DNA of 64,000 bases from Heyndrickxia coagulans 36D1 (GTDB lineage Bacteria > Bacillota > Bacilli > Bacillales > Bacillaceae_C). The translations under genes and the position numbers were made by a program. Under the pieces are notes generated by a model. It searched no databases, was not told the DNA's origin, and worked only from the letters and a program-made list of their open reading frames with translations. Where the stretch lies: NCBI RefSeq assembly GCF_000169195.2, contig NC_016023.1:620001-684000 (forward strand), given 5' to 3'. Below, one piece after another: positions 16,121 to 50,165 of this stretch (position 1 is the first letter of the stretch; each line of letters starts with the position of its first letter).

Positions 16121-16204
16121 TTGAACCGGGCAAGTGCCTCTCTACATACAGGCCCTTTACGTAAACTTATTCCCCAACGGTGCCTACGTGAACTTATGGT
16201 TGGA

Positions 16205-16452
16205 TTTTCGCATTGTTCCTTAACGTAGAACTGCTCTATGTGAACTTATGGCCGGATTTTTGCATTGTTCCTTAACGTAGAACCACTCTATGTGAACTTA
16301 TGACCGGATTTTTCGTCCGTTCCTTAACGTAGAACCGCTCTATGTGAACTTTTGACCGGATTTTTTGTCTGTTCCTTAACGTAGAACCATTCTATGTGAA
16401 CTTTTGACCAATTTTTTCGTCTGTTCCTTAACGTAGAACCGTTCTATGTGAA
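16205..16452. repeat. 52-bp tandem repeat array 1 (5 units)
   Basis: TAACGTAGAAC recurs at 16221, 16273, 16325, 16377 and 16429, exactly 52 bases apart. Each unit reads TTCCTTAACGTAGAAC, then a variable 4-mer, TCTATGTGAACTT, then GGATTTTT-type spacer. The right half of the palindrome seen in arrays 2 and 3 (TCTACGTTAAG) is replaced by TCTATGTGAAC. Degenerate units extend back to about 16130. It lies between two convergent gene 3' ends. Confidence 0.92.
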
Positions 16453-16601
16453 ATTACTATCAAAAATTTCGATTCTTTCTCGTTCCCCCCTTATAAAACG
16501 ATCAAGCTGGGTTATGTTGCACAAACTTCCAAGAATTACCGCGGACCCTCACAAACCCGGACAAACATCCAAAAAGCCTGCCGGAACCCGTATATCTACC
16601 G

Positions 16602-27216: not shown

Positions 27217-27732
27217 ATGAAAAAAATTTGGTTTGCAACTTTTAGCCTTGCCCTTGTGCTTGCACTTGGCGCATGTTCCGGAAATTCAGGGCAGTCCGGG
27301 GCAAAGAAACCGGCAAAAAGCAGCACAAAAACAGCTTTGATGAATTTTTATATGAATCTCACCAATCATATCAATGCCCAGGACAGGGATTTAAATACGT
27401 ATGAACAGGCGATCGCTAAGACGGACGAAAAACCGCCGAAAACTGAGCTTGCCACCATGCAGAAGGAAGCGCAGTCATCCGCAGAAAATGTAGTGAAAGA
27501 AATTAAAAATACGAAAATCCCATCCAAAATAAGTAGCTATCAATCGGAGATCAAAACGGCTGTAAAAGATTTGCAACAGTCCTACCAAATGAAAGCGGAT
27601 GAGTTGAAAAAAACGAACCCTTCGCTGGATGCTGCGAACAAAAAACTGGAACAAGCCAACGATGAACTCGGCAAAGTATTTAAAAAAGCCGGCTTGTCAC
27701 CGGCCAGCCTCCCGGACGATGTTAATTCATAA
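27217..27732 (+). CDS. Putative lipoprotein, unknown function
   Basis: 171 aa. Lipoprotein signal peptide with lipobox LGAC at residues 17-20 (MKKIWFATFSLALVLALGAC), Ser/Gly/Lys linker, then an all-helical body rich in Lys, Glu, Gln and Ala, probably coiled-coil (AELKKTNPSLDAAN, KLEQANDELGKVFKKAG). Anchored to the outer face of the membrane. No family recognised. AGGAAGGGG precedes ATG 27217 by about eight bases. A 46-bp tandem repeat array begins at its stop codon. Confidence 0.85.
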   Translation: MKKIWFATFSLALVLALGACSGNSGQSGAKKPAKSSTKTALMNFYMNLTNHINAQDRDLNTYEQAIAKTDEKPPKTELATMQKEAQSSAENVVKEIKNTKIPSKISSYQSEIKTAVKDLQQSYQMKADELKKTNPSLDAANKKLEQANDELGKVFKKAGLSPASLPDDVNS

Positions 27733-27992
27733 GGAAGTTTCAAAATATAATCGGGCGATTGCCGACCCAAACGGCTTCCGCTGATGTCCATTCAGAGGGA
27801 AGTTTCGAAATACAATCGGGCGATGGCCAATGCCCATTCAAAGGGAAGTTTCAAAATACGACCGGGCGATTGCTGATACTCATTCAAATAAAAGTCTCAA
27901 AACACGACCAGGCGATGGCCGGTACCTATTCAAAAGGAAGTCTCAATACACAGCTGGACGATTGCCTATGCCCAATTAAAAGGAAGTCCAAA
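27727..27992. repeat. 46-bp tandem repeat array after the lipoprotein gene
   Basis: GGAAG-type unit starts occur at 27733, 27798, 27844, 27890, 27936 and 27982; the last four intervals are exactly 46, the first is 65. A typical unit is ATTCAAAGGGAAGTTTCAAA followed by ATACGACCGGGCGATTGC. The first unit overlaps the stop codon of the lipoprotein gene (AATTCATAAGGAAG). Confidence 0.88.
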
Positions 27993-27993
27993 A

Positions 27994-28034
27994 CAGAAGG
28001 CCTGCCGGAGAATCGATTTCCGGCAGGCCTTCTG
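27994..28034. terminator. Perfect 16-bp hairpin closing the 46-bp array
   Basis: CAGAAGGCCTGCCGGA (27994-28009), nine-base loop, exact complement (28019-28034). There is no U-run on either strand, so it is either a weak terminator for both convergent genes or an RNA-stabilising hairpin. Confidence 0.6.
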
Positions 28035-28164: not shown

Positions 28165-29295
28165 CTATTCGGGATCTACCAGCTCACCGCGCTTTATGTC
28201 TTTTCGCCTCAATTCCACATGCTGCGCTTTTGCATATTTTTTCAACACCGTTTCTTCTTTCGGCGTGACAAGAGAGACAACTGTGCCGGGGTTTGAACCG
28301 AGCCGGCCTGTCCGTCCCGAACGGTGGACATATGCGGAACCATCTTCCGGCAAATCAAATTGAATCACATGCGTAATCGCCGGAATGTCCAGGCCGCGGG
28401 CAGCGACATCCGTTGCCAAAAGGAGCGGGACATCGCCGTTTTGGAACAACCGGATACTTTTTTCTCTTTCTTCCTTGCGCATATCGCCATGCAATTCGGC
28501 GATGGCCAGCCCTTTGAACCGGAGTTTTTCCACTGCAACCGAAACATCCCATTTATTATTAAAAAACACGAGTCCCCGGACCCCCATTCGGGCTATCTTT
28601 CGCAACTGCTCGATTTTGTCGCGCGGATCGCTGCTTACGATATAAATATGTTCAACCGGGCTCCGCGCCTCCTCTTTTGCAATGCGAATCAACAGGGGTT
28701 CTTTCATCTGTTCCATAGCCTTATGGGCTGCAGCATCAGGCAAAGTGGCTGAAAACAAAAGGAGCTGGCAGTCACGCATGGCGGATTTTACAATTTGTCC
28801 GACCGTGCGGCTGTATTCCTTTCCGAGCAGCTGGTCCCCTTCATCGAGCACCATCATTTTCACTTCATGCATTTTCAGTTTTTTCTGGTGGATCAATTCA
28901 AGGATGCGTCCAGGCGTCCCGATAACAAGGTGCGGGTGTTTTTTCAGTTTTTCAATTTGCCGTTTCACATTCGCGCCGCCGATCAGCGGGATGCTCCGGA
29001 TTCCGCTTCCCTGTGACCATTTTCCGGCTTCCTCTTGGATTTGCATGACCAGTTCTTTAGAAGGCGCCAGAATGACAGCTTGAACCGTTTGTTTTCCGGG
29101 GTCCATCCGGTCGAGCACAGGCAGCAGGTAGGCGAGTGTTTTTCCCGATCCTGTCGGTGCTGCAGCAATCACATCCCGGCCGTCCAGCACAGCAGGAATC
29201 ACTTTTTCCTGTACAGAAGCAGGATGTTCAAACGTTGAATTTTTCCATGCCTGTTGTAAAAAAGGCTGTAAATGATGAATGAATGTAGGTTCCAT
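28165..29295 (-). CDS. yfmL: DEAD-box-type ATP-dependent RNA helicase YfmL
   Basis: 376 aa, same length as B. subtilis YfmL, a helicase linked to ribosome assembly and cold growth. Motifs: Q-motif region FEHPASVQEKVIPAVL, Walker A AAAPTGSGKT, Ia APSKELVMQ, Ib TPGRILE, motif II VLDEGDQL (DEGD instead of DEAD), motif III FSATLP, and VI VHRSGRTGR. It has the two RecA domains and almost no C-terminal extension. ATG 29295 has a modest TTAGGGA site. An extended -10 (TGTATGAT, 29331-29338 complement) lies just before the 52-bp array 2, so the array sits immediately upstream of its promoter. Confidence 0.9.
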   Translation of the reverse strand: MEPTFIHHLQPFLQQAWKNSTFEHPASVQEKVIPAVLDGRDVIAAAPTGSGKTLAYLLPVLDRMDPGKQTVQAVILAPSKELVMQIQEEAGKWSQGSGIRSIPLIGGANVKRQIEKLKKHPHLVIGTPGRILELIHQKKLKMHEVKMMVLDEGDQLLGKEYSRTVGQIVKSAMRDCQLLLFSATLPDAAAHKAMEQMKEPLLIRIAKEEARSPVEHIYIVSSDPRDKIEQLRKIARMGVRGLVFFNNKWDVSVAVEKLRFKGLAIAELHGDMRKEEREKSIRLFQNGDVPLLLATDVAARGLDIPAITHVIQFDLPEDGSAYVHRSGRTGRLGSNPGTVVSLVTPKEETVLKKYAKAQHVELRRKDIKRGELVDPE

Positions 29296-29359: not shown

Positions 29360-30116
29360 AGTTATCTAACGTAGACCCGTTCTATGTTAAGGAAGATCGC
29401 TTAATATCGCCCCTATCTTAACGTAGAGGTGTTCTATGTTAAGGAAGACCGAAAAAAAGTCATGCTTTCTTAACGTAGACCCGCTCTATATTAAGGAAGA
29501 TCGAAAAAAATCGCCCCTTTCTTAACTTAGAGCCATTCTACGTTAAGGAAGATCGCCTAAAATCGTCCCTATCTTAACGTAGAGGCGTTCTACGTTAAGG
29601 AAGACCCCCAAAATGACACGCTTCCTTAACGTAGATCCATCCTACGTTAAGGAAGATCGCCTAAAATCGTCCCTATCTTAACGTAGACCCGCTCTATATT
29701 AAGGAAGATCGAAAAAAATCGCCCCTTTCTTAACGTAGAGCCATTCTACGTTAAGGAAGACCTCCAAAAAGTCACGCTTTCTTAACTTAGAGGCGTTCTA
29801 TGTTAAGGAAGACCGTTAAAAATCGTCCCTATCTTAACATAGACCCGCTCTACGTTAAGGAAGACAGAAAAAAAGTCATGCTTTCTTAACGTAGACCCGC
29901 TCTATATTAAGGAAGATCGAAAAAAATCGCCCCTTTCTTAACGTAGACCCATTCTACGTTAAGGAAGACCGAAAAAAAGTCATGCTTTCTTAACGTAGAC
30001 CCGCTCTATATTAAGGAAGATCGAAAAAAATCGTCCCTTTCTTAACGTAGAGCCATTCTACGTTAAGGAAGACCGCCAGAAATCATCCCTATCTTAACGT
30101 AGATCCTCGTTCCTTA
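29360..30116. repeat. 52-bp tandem palindromic repeat array 2 (15 units)
   Basis: Left arms TAACGTAG (or one-base variants) start at 29367, 29419, 29471, 29523, 29575, 29627, 29679, 29731, 29783, 29835, 29887, 29939, 29991, 30043 and 30095: every interval is exactly 52. Each unit is the palindrome CTTAACGTAGA, 4-5 variable bases, TCTACGTTAAG, then about 26 bases of GGAAGAYCGAAAAAAATCG with CCCCTTT or GAYCG...GTCATGCTTT. It lies between the 3' end of adhE and the 5' end of yfmL. Confidence 0.95.
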
Positions 30117-30123
30117 CCTTAAA

Positions 30124-30240
30124 AACCCGTCTAAGTGAAGTGATCGCCAAAATTCTGGCTATTTCCTTCACTTAGACGGGCTCTATGTTAACGGATCAAC
30201 AATTTTTAAATTGCTTCTTTTTCATAGACACGGGCTACAT
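30124..30240. repeat. Variant inverted repeat beside array 2
   Basis: CCCGTCTAAGTGAAG, 26-base loop, CTTCACTTAGACGGG is a perfect 15-bp inverted repeat; the right arm continues CTCTATGTTAAC, which is the array half-palindrome. A further degenerate unit (CTTCACGTAAAGTG) lies near 30271-30284. Confidence 0.75.
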
Positions 30241-30307: not shown

Positions 30308-32920
30308 TTATTTTGCTTCAACGCCTTCAAAAGCTTTGCGTAAAATGTCTTCCAATTCGCTGACAAGCGGCAATTTAGGGTTTGCAGGTGTGCATTGGTC
30401 TTCAAATGCGCGGTCTGCAATAATGGCAACCCGTTTTTCAAAGTCCGCCCGGTTCACGCCGGCTGCTTTTAGGCTAAGCGGAATATTGAACAGTTTGCAC
30501 ATCCGGATGATTTCCTGGCAAAGGCTTTCGACACCTTCTTCTGTCGTGCTTGCCGGAAGACCAAGTACGCGCGCGATTTCCGCGTAGCGTTGATCCGCAA
30601 TAAAATGTTCGTATTTCGGGAATGCCGCAAATTTTTTCGGCTTTTGCGCGTTATAGCGGATGACATGCGGCAACAGAATCGCGTTAGCCCGGCCGTGCGG
30701 AATATGGAATTCAGCGCCGATTTTATGGGCAAGTGAATGGTTGATGCCAAGGAATGCATTCGAGAACGCCATCCCTGCCAAAGTCGATGCATTGTGCATT
30801 TTTTCGCGTGCCAGTGCATCATTGCCATTTGCGTATGCTTTCGGCAAGTATTCGTGAACAAGCTGGATGGCCTTAATTGCCAGGCCGTCCGTATAGTCGT
30901 TGGCCATGTTGGATACATAGGCTTCAATCGCATGGGTCAAAACGTCCATCCCGGTATCGGCTGTTACGGATTTCGGAACGGTCATAACAAACTGCGGGTC
31001 AATGATCGCAACATCCGGTGTCAGTTCATAGTCTGCGAGCGGATATTTTGTGTTGTTCTTTTTATCCGAAATGACGGCGAAAGAAGTCACTTCAGAACCG
31101 GTGCCCGATGTGGTCGGAATGCAGACCAGCTGCGCTTTTTCACCCAGTTTCGGGAATTTGGCAACCCGTTTCCGGATGTCCATAAATTTTTGCTTCAATT
31201 CGTTGAAATCAACTTCCGGATGCTCATAGAACAGCCACATGCCTTTTGCAGCATCCATCGCCGACCCGCCGCCAAGCGCGATAATGACATCCGGCTGGAA
31301 GCTTGCCATAGCTGCGGCACCTTTCCGAACCGTTTCAATAGACGGATCCGGTTCGACTTCTGAGAAAATTTCACAGTGCACATAGTCCGGGCGTTTCCGC
31401 AAGTAATACAGTACTTTCTCAACGAATCCAAGCCTGACCATATCCGGATCGGTGACAATAAAGGCACTTGAGATATCCGGCATTTTTTCCAGGTATTGGA
31501 CCGAGTTCTTTTCAAAATACACGCGCGGTGGAATTTTAAACCATTGCATATTGACTCTCCGTTTCGCCATTGTTTTTACATTGTAAAGATTGATGACACC
31601 GACGTTTGTGGACACCGAGTTGCCGCCAAACGTGCCGCAGCCGAGTGTCAAAGAAGGCATGTAGGCATTGTAAATGTCGCCGATTGCCCCTTGCGAAGAC
31701 GGGGAGTTGACAATGATCCGGCCGGCTTTCATTTTTAAGCCGTATTGTTCAATGACTTCATCGTTTGTCGAATGGATCACAGCCGAGTGACCAAGTCCGC
31801 CGAATTCGAGCATGGCTTCTGCAAATTCGAAACCTTGTTTTGTGCTGTTGGCTTTGTAACAGGCCAAAACCGGGCTTAATTTTTCTCTGGAAAGCGGGTA
31901 GTCCGGGCCGACACCTGTAAGTTCGGCGATTAAAATTTTGGTATCTTCCGGAACATTTACGCCTGCCATTTTCGCAATTTCATAGGCCGGTTTGCCGACA
32001 ATGGCGCTGTTGACGGATTGCGTCTTTTCATTGATGACGGTTTTCTCAACCTTTTTCTTCTCCGCTTCATTCAGGAAGTAGCATTGATTTGCAATCAATT
32101 CGTTTTTCACATTGTCATAAATTTCTTTGTCGATGATGACAGCCTGTTCCGACGCACAGATCATGCCGTTGTCAAACGTTTTGGACAAAATCAAATCATT
32201 GACGGCGCGTTTGATATCAGCAGATTTTTCAATATAGCAAGGGACGTTTCCCGGCCCGACGCCAAGCGCAGGTTTCCCGCTCGAATATGCGGACTTTACC
32301 ATGCCGGAACCGCCCGTTGCAAGAATCAGTGAAATACCCGAATGGTTCATCAATTGCTGTGTCGCTTCAATGGCCGGTTTTTCGATCCATTGGATGCAGT
32401 TTTCCGGGGCGCCGGCTTTCACAGCAGCGTCAAGCATCACTTTTGCGGCATGGCTGCTGCATTTTTGTGCGGACGGATGGAACGCGAAAATAATTGGGTT
32501 GCGTGTTTTAATGGCAATTAATGCTTTAAACATCGTGGTTGATGTCGGGTTTGTTACAGGAGTGACCCCGGCAATCACGCCGACCGGTTCCGCAAATTTA
32601 ACAATCCCTTCATTATTGTTTTCGTCAATGATGCCGACTGTTTTGTTATATTTAATGTTGTGATAGATGTATTCTGTTGCAAACAAGTTTTTTGTCATTT
32701 TGTCTTCATATACGCCGCGCCCTGTTTCTTCCACGGCCATTTTGGCGAGCACCATATGCTGTTCCAACCCGGCAAGTGCCATTTGTTTTACGATATTGTC
32801 CACTTGTGCCTGATCCAGTTCCATAAATTCACGCAGTGCTTTTTGCCCTTTTGCGACGAGGGAATCGACCATTTCCGTGATTTGCGCAGATTTGCCAACA
32901 ACTTTTTCATCGATTGCCAT
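30308..32920 (-). CDS. adhE: Bifunctional acetaldehyde-CoA/alcohol dehydrogenase AdhE
   Basis: 870 aa cytosolic fusion: N-terminal CoA-dependent aldehyde dehydrogenase (about 1-440; catalytic Cys in NGMICASEQAV, NAD loop GVTPVTNPTS) and C-terminal iron alcohol dehydrogenase (about 455-870; ALGGGSAMDAAKGMW, iron His in GINHSLAHKIGAEFHIPHG). It reduces acetyl-CoA to ethanol, re-oxidising two NADH in fermentation, and may form spirosomes. ATG 32920 (MAIDEKVV) is preferred over 32962 because GGGGG sits eight bases before it and a Rex box covers the earlier ATG. Two Rex boxes over its promoter indicate induction by high NADH; a cre-like site is further upstream. Confidence 0.96.
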   Translation of the reverse strand: MAIDEKVVGKSAQITEMVDSLVAKGQKALREFMELDQAQVDNIVKQMALAGLEQHMVLAKMAVEETGRGVYEDKMTKNLFATEYIYHNIKYNKTVGIIDENNNEGIVKFAEPVGVIAGVTPVTNPTSTTMFKALIAIKTRNPIIFAFHPSAQKCSSHAAKVMLDAAVKAGAPENCIQWIEKPAIEATQQLMNHSGISLILATGGSGMVKSAYSSGKPALGVGPGNVPCYIEKSADIKRAVNDLILSKTFDNGMICASEQAVIIDKEIYDNVKNELIANQCYFLNEAEKKKVEKTVINEKTQSVNSAIVGKPAYEIAKMAGVNVPEDTKILIAELTGVGPDYPLSREKLSPVLACYKANSTKQGFEFAEAMLEFGGLGHSAVIHSTNDEVIEQYGLKMKAGRIIVNSPSSQGAIGDIYNAYMPSLTLGCGTFGGNSVSTNVGVINLYNVKTMAKRRVNMQWFKIPPRVYFEKNSVQYLEKMPDISSAFIVTDPDMVRLGFVEKVLYYLRKRPDYVHCEIFSEVEPDPSIETVRKGAAAMASFQPDVIIALGGGSAMDAAKGMWLFYEHPEVDFNELKQKFMDIRKRVAKFPKLGEKAQLVCIPTTSGTGSEVTSFAVISDKKNNTKYPLADYELTPDVAIIDPQFVMTVPKSVTADTGMDVLTHAIEAYVSNMANDYTDGLAIKAIQLVHEYLPKAYANGNDALAREKMHNASTLAGMAFSNAFLGINHSLAHKIGAEFHIPHGRANAILLPHVIRYNAQKPKKFAAFPKYEHFIADQRYAEIARVLGLPASTTEEGVESLCQEIIRMCKLFNIPLSLKAAGVNRADFEKRVAIIADRAFEDQCTPANPKLPLVSELEDILRKAFEGVEAK

Positions 32921-32946
32921 GTTCGTGGCCCCCATTCTAAATGTTT

Positions 32947-33002
32947 TTGTGAATAATTTCACATGATAGACTAAAAAATATAATTTGTGAAGTATTTCAC
33001 AT
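32947..33002 (-). promoter_or_regulatory. adhE promoter overlapped by two Rex boxes
   Basis: Rex boxes TTGTGAATAATTTCACAT (32947-32964) and TTGTGAAGTATTTCACAT (32985-33002) fit TTGTGAA-N4-TTCACAA. On the minus strand -35 TTCACA (32986-32991) and -10 TATCAT (32963-32968) are 17 bases apart; one box covers -35 and the other -10. A half site (ATGTGAAATCG) lies near 33055-33065 beside another TATAAT. Confidence 0.88.
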
Positions 33003-49439: not shown

Positions 49440-50165
49440 CCTGCCTTGGTAAAGATTGGGGCGTTAAGATAGCGGGGATTTTTGACGGCCTTCCTTAACA
49501 TAGAACGCCTCTACGTTAAGATAGCATGTCTTTTTTTCGGACTTCCTTAACGTAGAACGCCTCTACGTTAAGATAGCATGTCTTTTTTTCGGGCTTCCTT
49601 AACATAGAGCGCCTCTATGTTAAGATAGCGGAACTTTTGGGCAGCCTTCCTTAACATAGGACGTCTCTACATTAAGAAAGCATGACTTTTGGGCGGGCTT
49701 CCTTAACATAGAACGCCTCTACGTTAAGATAGCGGGCATTTTTTTCGAGCTTCCTTAACGTAGAACGCCTCTACGTTAAGGAAGCGGGACTTTTGGACGA
49801 CCTTCCTTAACATAGAGAGTTCTACGTTAAGATAGCGGAACTTTTTGCCGGCATTCCTCAACATAGAACGCCTCTACATTAAGAAAGCGGGCATTTTTTT
49901 CGAGCTTCCTTAACGTAGAACGCCTCTACGTTAAGGAAGCGGGACTTTTGGGCAGCCTTAACATAGGACGTCTCTACATTAAGAAAGCATGTCTTTTTGT
50001 CGAGCTTCCTTTCTATGTTAAGATAAATCCTGCTTTTTTCACCCTTCCTTAACATAGAACGCCCTACGTTAAGATAGCGGGGATTTTTGGTCTCCTTCCT
50101 TAACGTAGAGTGACTCTACGTTAAGGTAGCGAGGATTTTTCGCGGCCTTCCTTAACGTAGAGTTC
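49440..50165. repeat. 52-bp tandem palindromic repeat array 3 (about 14 units, inverted)
   Basis: Left arms TAACRTAG start at 49496, 49548, 49600, 49652, 49704, 49756, 49808, 49859, 49911, 49959, 50050, 50101 and 50153. Intervals are 52 except where a unit has a small deletion (51, 48) or lost its left arm (near 50010). Unit: CTTCCTTAACATAGAACGCC, TCTACGTTAAG, ATAGCGGGCATTTTTTTCGA. Its reverse complement aligns with the array 2 unit, so it is the same repeat turned round. It lies between the amidase 3' end and the TPP riboswitch. Confidence 0.95.

Follow-up and report, generated by a model that had tools for sequence, protein, structure and literature searches.

Heyndrickxia coagulans (formerly Bacillus coagulans) is a food and probiotic bacterium. 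In the genome of strain 36D1 (3,552,226 bases, single contig), a row of palindromes recurring with a step of exactly 52 bp is located between genes encoding a DEAD-box RNA helicase and a bifunctional dehydrogenase, and this locus raises the question of what keeps such a step: selection on length, as for a bound protein, or the recent expansion of a repeat. The stretch of DNA analysed, termed the window here, comprises 64,000 nucleotides (positions 620001-684000 of the genome) and harbors the following features, given in window coordinates, with the palindromes of this type designated family A:

16184..16456, minus strand: second family-A array, five units, all four intervals 52 bp; flanked by convergent ORFs, coding for a protein of 141 aa (weak universal-stress match) and a SpoVB-like protein (below that model's cut-off)
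28165..29295, minus strand: DEAD-box RNA helicase gene (CshA is the best NCBIfam match, though below cut-off), 5′ end towards the array
29366..30118, plus strand: the array in question, 14 complete family-A units followed by a half unit, all at a 52-bp step (pattern scan and TRF)
30119..30200, plus strand: degenerate array edge, with half-sites CCCGTCTAAGTGAAG ... CTTCACTTAGACGGG and one palindrome at 30167
30308..32962, minus strand: bifunctional acetaldehyde-CoA/alcohol dehydrogenase gene, 3′ end towards the array
49462..50163, minus strand (from the A-tract; consensus fit ambiguous): third family-A array, 12 units, more eroded

The original prediction described 15 units of a 26-bp palindrome. 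The array is real, but a pattern scan, in which a complete unit has a 5-nt centre and no more than two of its 20 arm bases deviate from the consensus, resolves it into 14 complete palindromes (starts at 29366, 29418 ... 30042), with every step equal to 52 bp, while the 15th slot (30094, a further 52 bp) retains the left arm only, with 5/20 bases off the consensus. The exact phase was confirmed by the scan, including the step to the half unit, and by TRF, which reports a period of 52 plus higher-order periods of 104 and 156. The palindrome at 30167, 73 bp beyond 30094, is out of this register. The predicted alternation of palindrome and A-tract spacer likewise holds, the family-A unit consisting of a 27-bp dyad (11 + 5 + 11) and a 25-bp spacer, with the A-tract of the mean spacer at positions 37-41 (on the plus strand in this array), and pairing of the palindrome often runs on into the spacer (CTTC...GAAG). 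In the eroded third array, seven of the eleven intervals are 52 bp, two are 51, one is 48 and one is 91. A 46-bp tandem repeat (27783-27995; 4.7 copies) can also be observed in the window between the ORFs ending at 27732 and 28165; it contains no strong dyad, and one of its frames is open.

Family A is represented in the 36D1 genome by 45 arrays of at least two units, with 407 units in total and 2 to 20 units per array. Among the 362 intervals, 340 are 52 bp, twelve are 51, three are 53 and seven have other values, and the centre is 5 nt long in 400/407 units. None of the intervals is exactly 104, suggesting that few interior slots were passed over, although a slot may be concealed in the single interval that measures 107. 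The arrays were collected with several patterns over the genome, followed by scanning of the surrounding stretches, giving 44 arrays and then 45 in the last scan; the broad pattern has 249 genome matches, all 249 within the scanned stretches, such that every array containing a match is covered, while arrays without a match could be missed. Four single palindromes apart from arrays were left out of the array count. The scan recovered two units in shuffled and one in reversed sequence (437,836 bases), against 409 in the real sequence, and the arrays are not due to chance. By simple ORF calls for 42 arrays, four (L077, L057, L059, L060) overlap an ORF of at least 75 aa while 38 do not, and stop codons are present in the array arms. 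The 45th array is a small one near the replication terminus (3,431,739-3,431,816; L191), comprising two units at a step of 52 with half-sites on either side, and is flanked by an apparent direct repeat of other sequence. Divergence, covariation and gene context, as reported below, were computed on the 44 arrays known before it.

The same step is found in arrays of two further palindromes, B1 (TTTTGTCCTTTTGA-N5-TCAAAAGGACA) and B2 (TTTTGTCCTTCAT-N7-ATGAAGGACA), the arms of which are unrelated to those of family A. The first of these arrays emerged at a locus printed as an orphan CRISPR (see below), and TRF revealed others. In 16 B arrays of 36D1, 184/202 intervals equal 52 bp, in a partial set where the collected stretches cover 98 + 70 of 123 + 86 broad matches. 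A B3-like third form (TTTTGTCCAATTAGA) occurs in a few places and was excluded from the counts. Switches between B1 and B2 inside rows (n = 6) take place at steps of 52, 52 and 104, in exact register, of 50 and 105, within 2 bp of it, and of 44, which is 8 bp off. The largest B array (2,292,538-2,294,171; L195) contains 32 units, 19 in one orientation and then 13 in the opposite one, with a 44-bp join.

Fifteen other tandem arrays with a period of at least 30 bp, identified in 0.61 Mb of 36D1, have periods of 42 to 231, none of them 52. The best 10-bp-arm dyad in these arrays reaches 7 in nine, 8 in four and 9 in two, as compared to 8 in 5, 9 in 19 and 10 in 20 of the 44 family-A arrays, and 9 in 1 and 10 in 15 of the 16 B arrays. 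The dyad strength of family A overlaps with that of the other tandem arrays, several of which are ORFs throughout; with this imperfect control, the 52-bp period goes with dyads.

A search among relatives, proposed along with the original prediction, located B arrays in other genera, while family A was found solely in the H. coagulans clade, based on a pattern search of 34 genomes of the family and four congeners. The B pattern matches 14 of 120 sampled genomes from the order, including 36D1 and its congener G030, and is absent from most of them; genomes G074, G080 and G120 have a single match each, G083, which belongs to the same genus as G038 and G148, has none, and the pattern read backwards as a control gave single matches in nine genomes. 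Intervals of 52 bp make up 77/80 of those in G148, 26/27 in G038 and 35/36 in G097 (part of the arrays read in the latter two), and 6/7 in the one array of G135, together 144/150. The family-A pattern matches 2/34 family genomes, 36D1 included, and a similarity search of the four congeners adds G030 to its carriers. The exact family-A pattern matched 11 records among genome contigs, a DSM 1 array among them; in the remaining ten records, scanned more loosely, no 52-bp step was seen. Two further rows can be observed in these genomes. Another array of 52-bp period but other sequence adjoins B2 units in G030 (L116, 1265-1444) and may be a further family, while in G038 (L149), and also in L119/L145, a TTTTGTTCAATAGAG-type unit lies one 52-bp step ahead of B2 units, as a third palindrome in the row. 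Queries built from two units of the A consensus and from a B2 sequence of three units matched neither plasmids nor phages, and in viral contigs one family-A match, a solitary palindrome within a stretch resembling coding sequence, and no strict B2 match were found; a plasmid or phage origin was dropped on the strength of the unmatched queries.

Arrays are present at the same loci as in 36D1 in DSM 1 (G032, L051) and G030. The original prediction had also pointed to a comparison of interval lengths among strains. The orthologous or related arrays of DSM 1 have 9/11 intervals of 52 bp, counted without chance matches away from arrays (threshold 4), and the one interval of G030 is 51. Orthologous arrays differ in unit number, with a length gap of 53 bp at the 2.054-Mb locus. 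At the 2.579-Mb locus, however, the gap is 712 bp, which is not a multiple of 52 and counts against an operator function of the arrays, as discussed below. No array with a period of 45-60 bp was detected in 175 kb of G031 or 120 kb of G033. Such arrays can furthermore break draft assemblies, as at the 1.69-Mb locus of 36D1, which in DSM 1 falls on two contig ends, one from each of two contigs.

That the length of the arrays is held more tightly than their sequence is supported by the divergence of family-A units, which within arrays is 14% for the palindrome and 29% for the spacer, and between arrays 20% and 42%, respectively. A minimum spanning tree of 398 units requires 2271 substitution steps (458 for the palindrome plus 1160 for the spacer if treated separately), such that, with 22 intervals other than 52, there are 0.010 (or 0.014) length changes for each substitution. 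In non-ORF flanks aligned between 36D1 and DSM 1 or G030, 1,604 sites contain 100 substitutions and 18 indels (ratio 0.18). Length changes per substitution are as such 13- to 19-fold rarer in the arrays than in the flanks, an estimate based on a small flank calibration and on an array substitution count inflated by recombination among units. Selection on length, one of the two origins considered at the outset, is supported by this deficit and by the retention of the 52-bp step over 45 arrays, unrelated palindromes, other genera and the DSM 1 intervals. Recent expansion agrees with the higher-order repeats and with differences in unit number inside arrays, but cannot alone explain one period for several palindromes.

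The arrays favour gene 3′ ends. According to simple ORF calls, with ORFs overlapping arrays left out, 90 arrays (44 of family A; 16, 21, 5, 3 and 1 of B) lie between convergent (41), codirectional (39) and divergent (10) ORF pairs, against a background of 121, 300 and 101 such pairs in 36D1 and 31, 121 and 23 in G148, and at 121/180 array edges the neighbouring ORF presents its 3′ end. When 154/168 flanking ORFs were scanned with Pfam, no family among the matches listed occurred in more than 3/99 or more than 3/55 flanking proteins.

The 41/90 arrays located between convergent ORFs would fit stacked transcription terminators or insulators between genes. The other 49 do not share this context, however, and the array region of the window contains one terminator-like site, as compared to 1.4 in shuffled sequences. 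The B palindromes have T's before the stem and a mixture of A's or T's after it, with no immediate T-tract on both strands. Intrinsic terminators were rejected on the basis of the window count and of stems without a directly adjoining T-tract, and we consider the wider terminator or insulator function very improbable.

A further possibility is that the arrays act at the RNA level, their transcripts, 3′ UTRs or small RNAs, forming rows of hairpins. Their position near gene 3′ ends would suit such a role, and five of six strands fold more stably than their shuffles (z -4.9 to -7.9), with the 16-kb array at z -0.9. Pairing within the palindrome, however, does not appear to be maintained. Family-A arms vary mainly at positions 4 and 7 (partners 24 and 21), and Watson-Crick pairs make up 38% at 4/24 (40% in shuffles) and 26% at 7/21 (31%), with the commonest combinations, C.T and A.C, breaking the pair; the variable arm pairs of B1 (49% vs 49%) and B2 (66% vs 66%) behave likewise. 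A few weak hints of pairing are seen at A 4/24 when shuffled within arrays (38% vs 36%; P 0.02), at the innermost B1 pair (30% vs 24% overall and 19% within arrays), at B1 pair 17, which lies outside the arms (54% vs 47%), and at B2 pair 14 (12% vs 10%), but in none of A, B1 and B2 do the variable arm pairs show clear compensatory change, and a stem under strong pairing selection was rejected on this ground. Neither the window nor four further loci match Rfam, and a row of hairpins needs no exact 52-nt step. A role in RNA is as such regarded as quite improbable. The half-site information profiles of family A agree (Spearman 0.90; the scan pattern is itself symmetric), and since the half-sites match and the variable positions lack clear compensation, the unit looks more like a two-fold protein site than an RNA stem. 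The proposal of protein binding in the original prediction gains indirect support from this motif symmetry and the lack of clear compensation.

The arrays may be distributed unevenly relative to replication. By GC skew, the origin of 36D1 lies near 1.37-1.39 Mb, with its terminus at 3.28-3.36 Mb. Within 10, 12.5, 15 and 20% of the terminus, 3, 3, 7 and 12 of the 45 family-A arrays are found (P 0.013, 0.0016, 0.021 and 0.045), with 11.2 expected in the 12.5% window, where inclusion of the 45th array at 3.43 Mb weakened the depletion from P 0.0004. The corresponding B array counts in 36D1 are 0, 1, 2 and 5 of 16 (P 0.03 to 0.33), the one in the 12.5% window comparing to 4.0 expected (P 0.06). 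In G148, 0, 1, 1 and 3 of 22 arrays are located within 5, 7.5, 10 and 12.5% of the terminus (P 0.10, 0.14, 0.048 and 0.16), with 4.4 expected within 10%. These counts are suggestive of a modest and partial depletion near the terminus.

The strict units of G148 are fully polar, with 51/51 of the right arm on one strand and 33/33 of the left arm on the other. Array orientation agrees with the local GC skew in 21/21 arrays read in G148, 5/5 in G038 and 6/6 in G097 (32/32, excluding single B units in the latter two genomes). It follows the strand less in 36D1, in 11/18 B blocks and, by the A-tract, in 29/44 family-A arrays (28/44 if the 669-kb array is read by consensus fit), and is discordant in the one array of G135 (0/1). 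The spacers are 77-84% purine on the oriented strand in the three polar genomes (G148, G038 and G097), and a leading-strand purine bias on the spacers may contribute to the orientation.

These observations bear on a selfish or neutral origin, whereby REP/BIME-like palindromes were spread as a 52-bp unit by a putative transposase and multiplied in tandem. The period would then go back to a founder unit or to the copying machinery, and would have no cellular function. HUH transposons insert into the single-stranded lagging-strand template, which the strand orientation of the arrays would fit, and the preference for gene 3′ ends, the patchy spread over the order, the differing unit numbers of orthologous arrays and the higher-order 104/156 repeats are all in keeping with such elements. 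The period is nevertheless common to unrelated palindromes, spacers that differ by 42% between arrays keep their length, and no recurrent family is evident among the listed matches of the flanking proteins. Furthermore, a PF01797 search found no intact REP-associated Y1 transposase in 36D1, where the sole match (1,095,618-1,095,737; L105, L113) is a 40-residue piece that covers model positions 1-40, contains one stop and has its nearest array ~14 kb away; G030 to G033 have at least one PF01797 match each. We regard this origin as possible, though on balance rather doubtful.

Our preferred, if tentative, explanation is that the arrays are helically phased rows of operators for a putative dimeric, possibly chromosome-organising protein. 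Each dyad would be the operator of one dimeric DNA-binding protein or of a small set of related proteins. B-DNA has 10.4 bp per turn, so that 52 bp corresponds to five turns, and successive dimers would sit on one face of the helix, where they could join as a regular filament or bridge. Recombination between units may lengthen and shorten the arrays, while units of the wrong length would be removed by selection because they break the row. The position at gene 3′ ends, the lower number near the 36D1 terminus and the orientation with the replication strand in three genomes suggest a chromosome-scale task, such as folding, anchoring or segregation, instead of the control of one neighbouring gene. 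Contrary results, namely the weak orientation in 36D1, the discordant G135, the 712-bp gap, the lack of an array in the G031 and G033 stretches, the family-A array near the terminus and the overlap in dyad strength, led us to lower our confidence in the operator explanation slightly and to raise that in the selfish one slightly.

A broader version of the operator explanation, which we consider unlikely, is that the 52-bp lattice is independent of sequence: a common architectural partner would keep several unrelated palindrome families at one spacing, while each family would presumably be recognised by a protein of its own. If true, dozens of chromosomal loci in some Bacillales would be organised as a regular nucleoprotein fibre, similar to positioned chromatin. 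Bacterial intergenic palindromes are usually viewed as loose and selfish, while here length is tighter than sequence and is common across genera. The 36D1 arrays and the similar arrays in some relatives point to a putative protein that recognises DNA at fixed intervals, and an architectural role of such arrays becomes directly testable. A literature search by title and start of abstract, mostly outside the subscription journals, returned no description of 52-bp arrays; it included the repeat and palindrome passages of PMC3368420, PMC4892684, PMC8954581 and PMC3733652, and in a sequence-string search of papers the matches listed look unrelated by title.

Among known systems, CRISPR resembles the arrays in that a palindromic repeat alternates regularly with a spacer of similar length, and one 36D1 locus (320,637-321,284) is listed as an orphan CRISPR of unknown type (PMC8954581 Table 4, in the part of that paper covered). 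That stretch belongs to a composite B2/B1 palindrome array with a step of 52 (320,266-321,282; L111 3767-4783), and the other 36D1 repeats of Table 4 differ from it. Here, in contrast to CRISPR, the repeats have diverged, in family A and in the B profiles alike, the spacers are mutually related and dozens of loci are involved. Among the top 25 of 204 and of 113 Pfam families for the 99 + 55 flanking proteins, no Cas family is present. CRISPR was rejected on the grounds of repeat and spacer divergence within family-A arrays and of related spacers, a CRISPR or CRISPR remnant has practically no probability, and the printed orphan-CRISPR call is corrected. XerC/XerD dif and other tyrosine-recombinase core sites have inverted arms of 10-13 bp and a 5-8 bp centre. 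They are alike in the arms and short centre, whereas the arrays form rows of up to 32 units at a fixed step. The bcr repeats of Bacillus cereus are likewise intergenic in Bacilli (bcr1 in the covered part of PMC3733652) and were compared by description only.

REP, BIME and REPIN elements are short extragenic palindromes, clustered and present at many loci (PMC3733652 and PMC3116915, in the parts covered). The 36D1 arrays are similarly composed of short palindromes largely outside genes, clustered at many loci, but differ in the one 52-bp step common to unrelated palindromes. In the unit profiles, the terminal GTAG/CGTC tag of REP is absent, family A ending in CTT/AAG and B1 and B2 in TGTC/GACA with flanking A or T, while GTAG occurs inside the A arms of part of the units. 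RAYT-linked REP was rejected based on this absence and that of an intact Y1 transposase in 36D1, where an orphan type I-B CRISPR, listed at 1,096,065 in the covered part of PMC8954581, lies near the transposase piece.

The nearest functional analogue for scattered palindromes that are missing at the terminus is provided by the Noc-binding sites (NBS), the consensus of which is presumably unlike family A or B. In Bacillus subtilis, ~70 such palindromes occur round the chromosome, bound by a spreading dimer, and none is located in the terminus region (PMC4331003, in the text covered). The covered text of that paper contains no phased tandem arrays, and the depletion observed here is, unlike that of NBS, only partial. 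BIMEs are the nearest repeats, and we claim membership of the 52-bp arrays in neither group.
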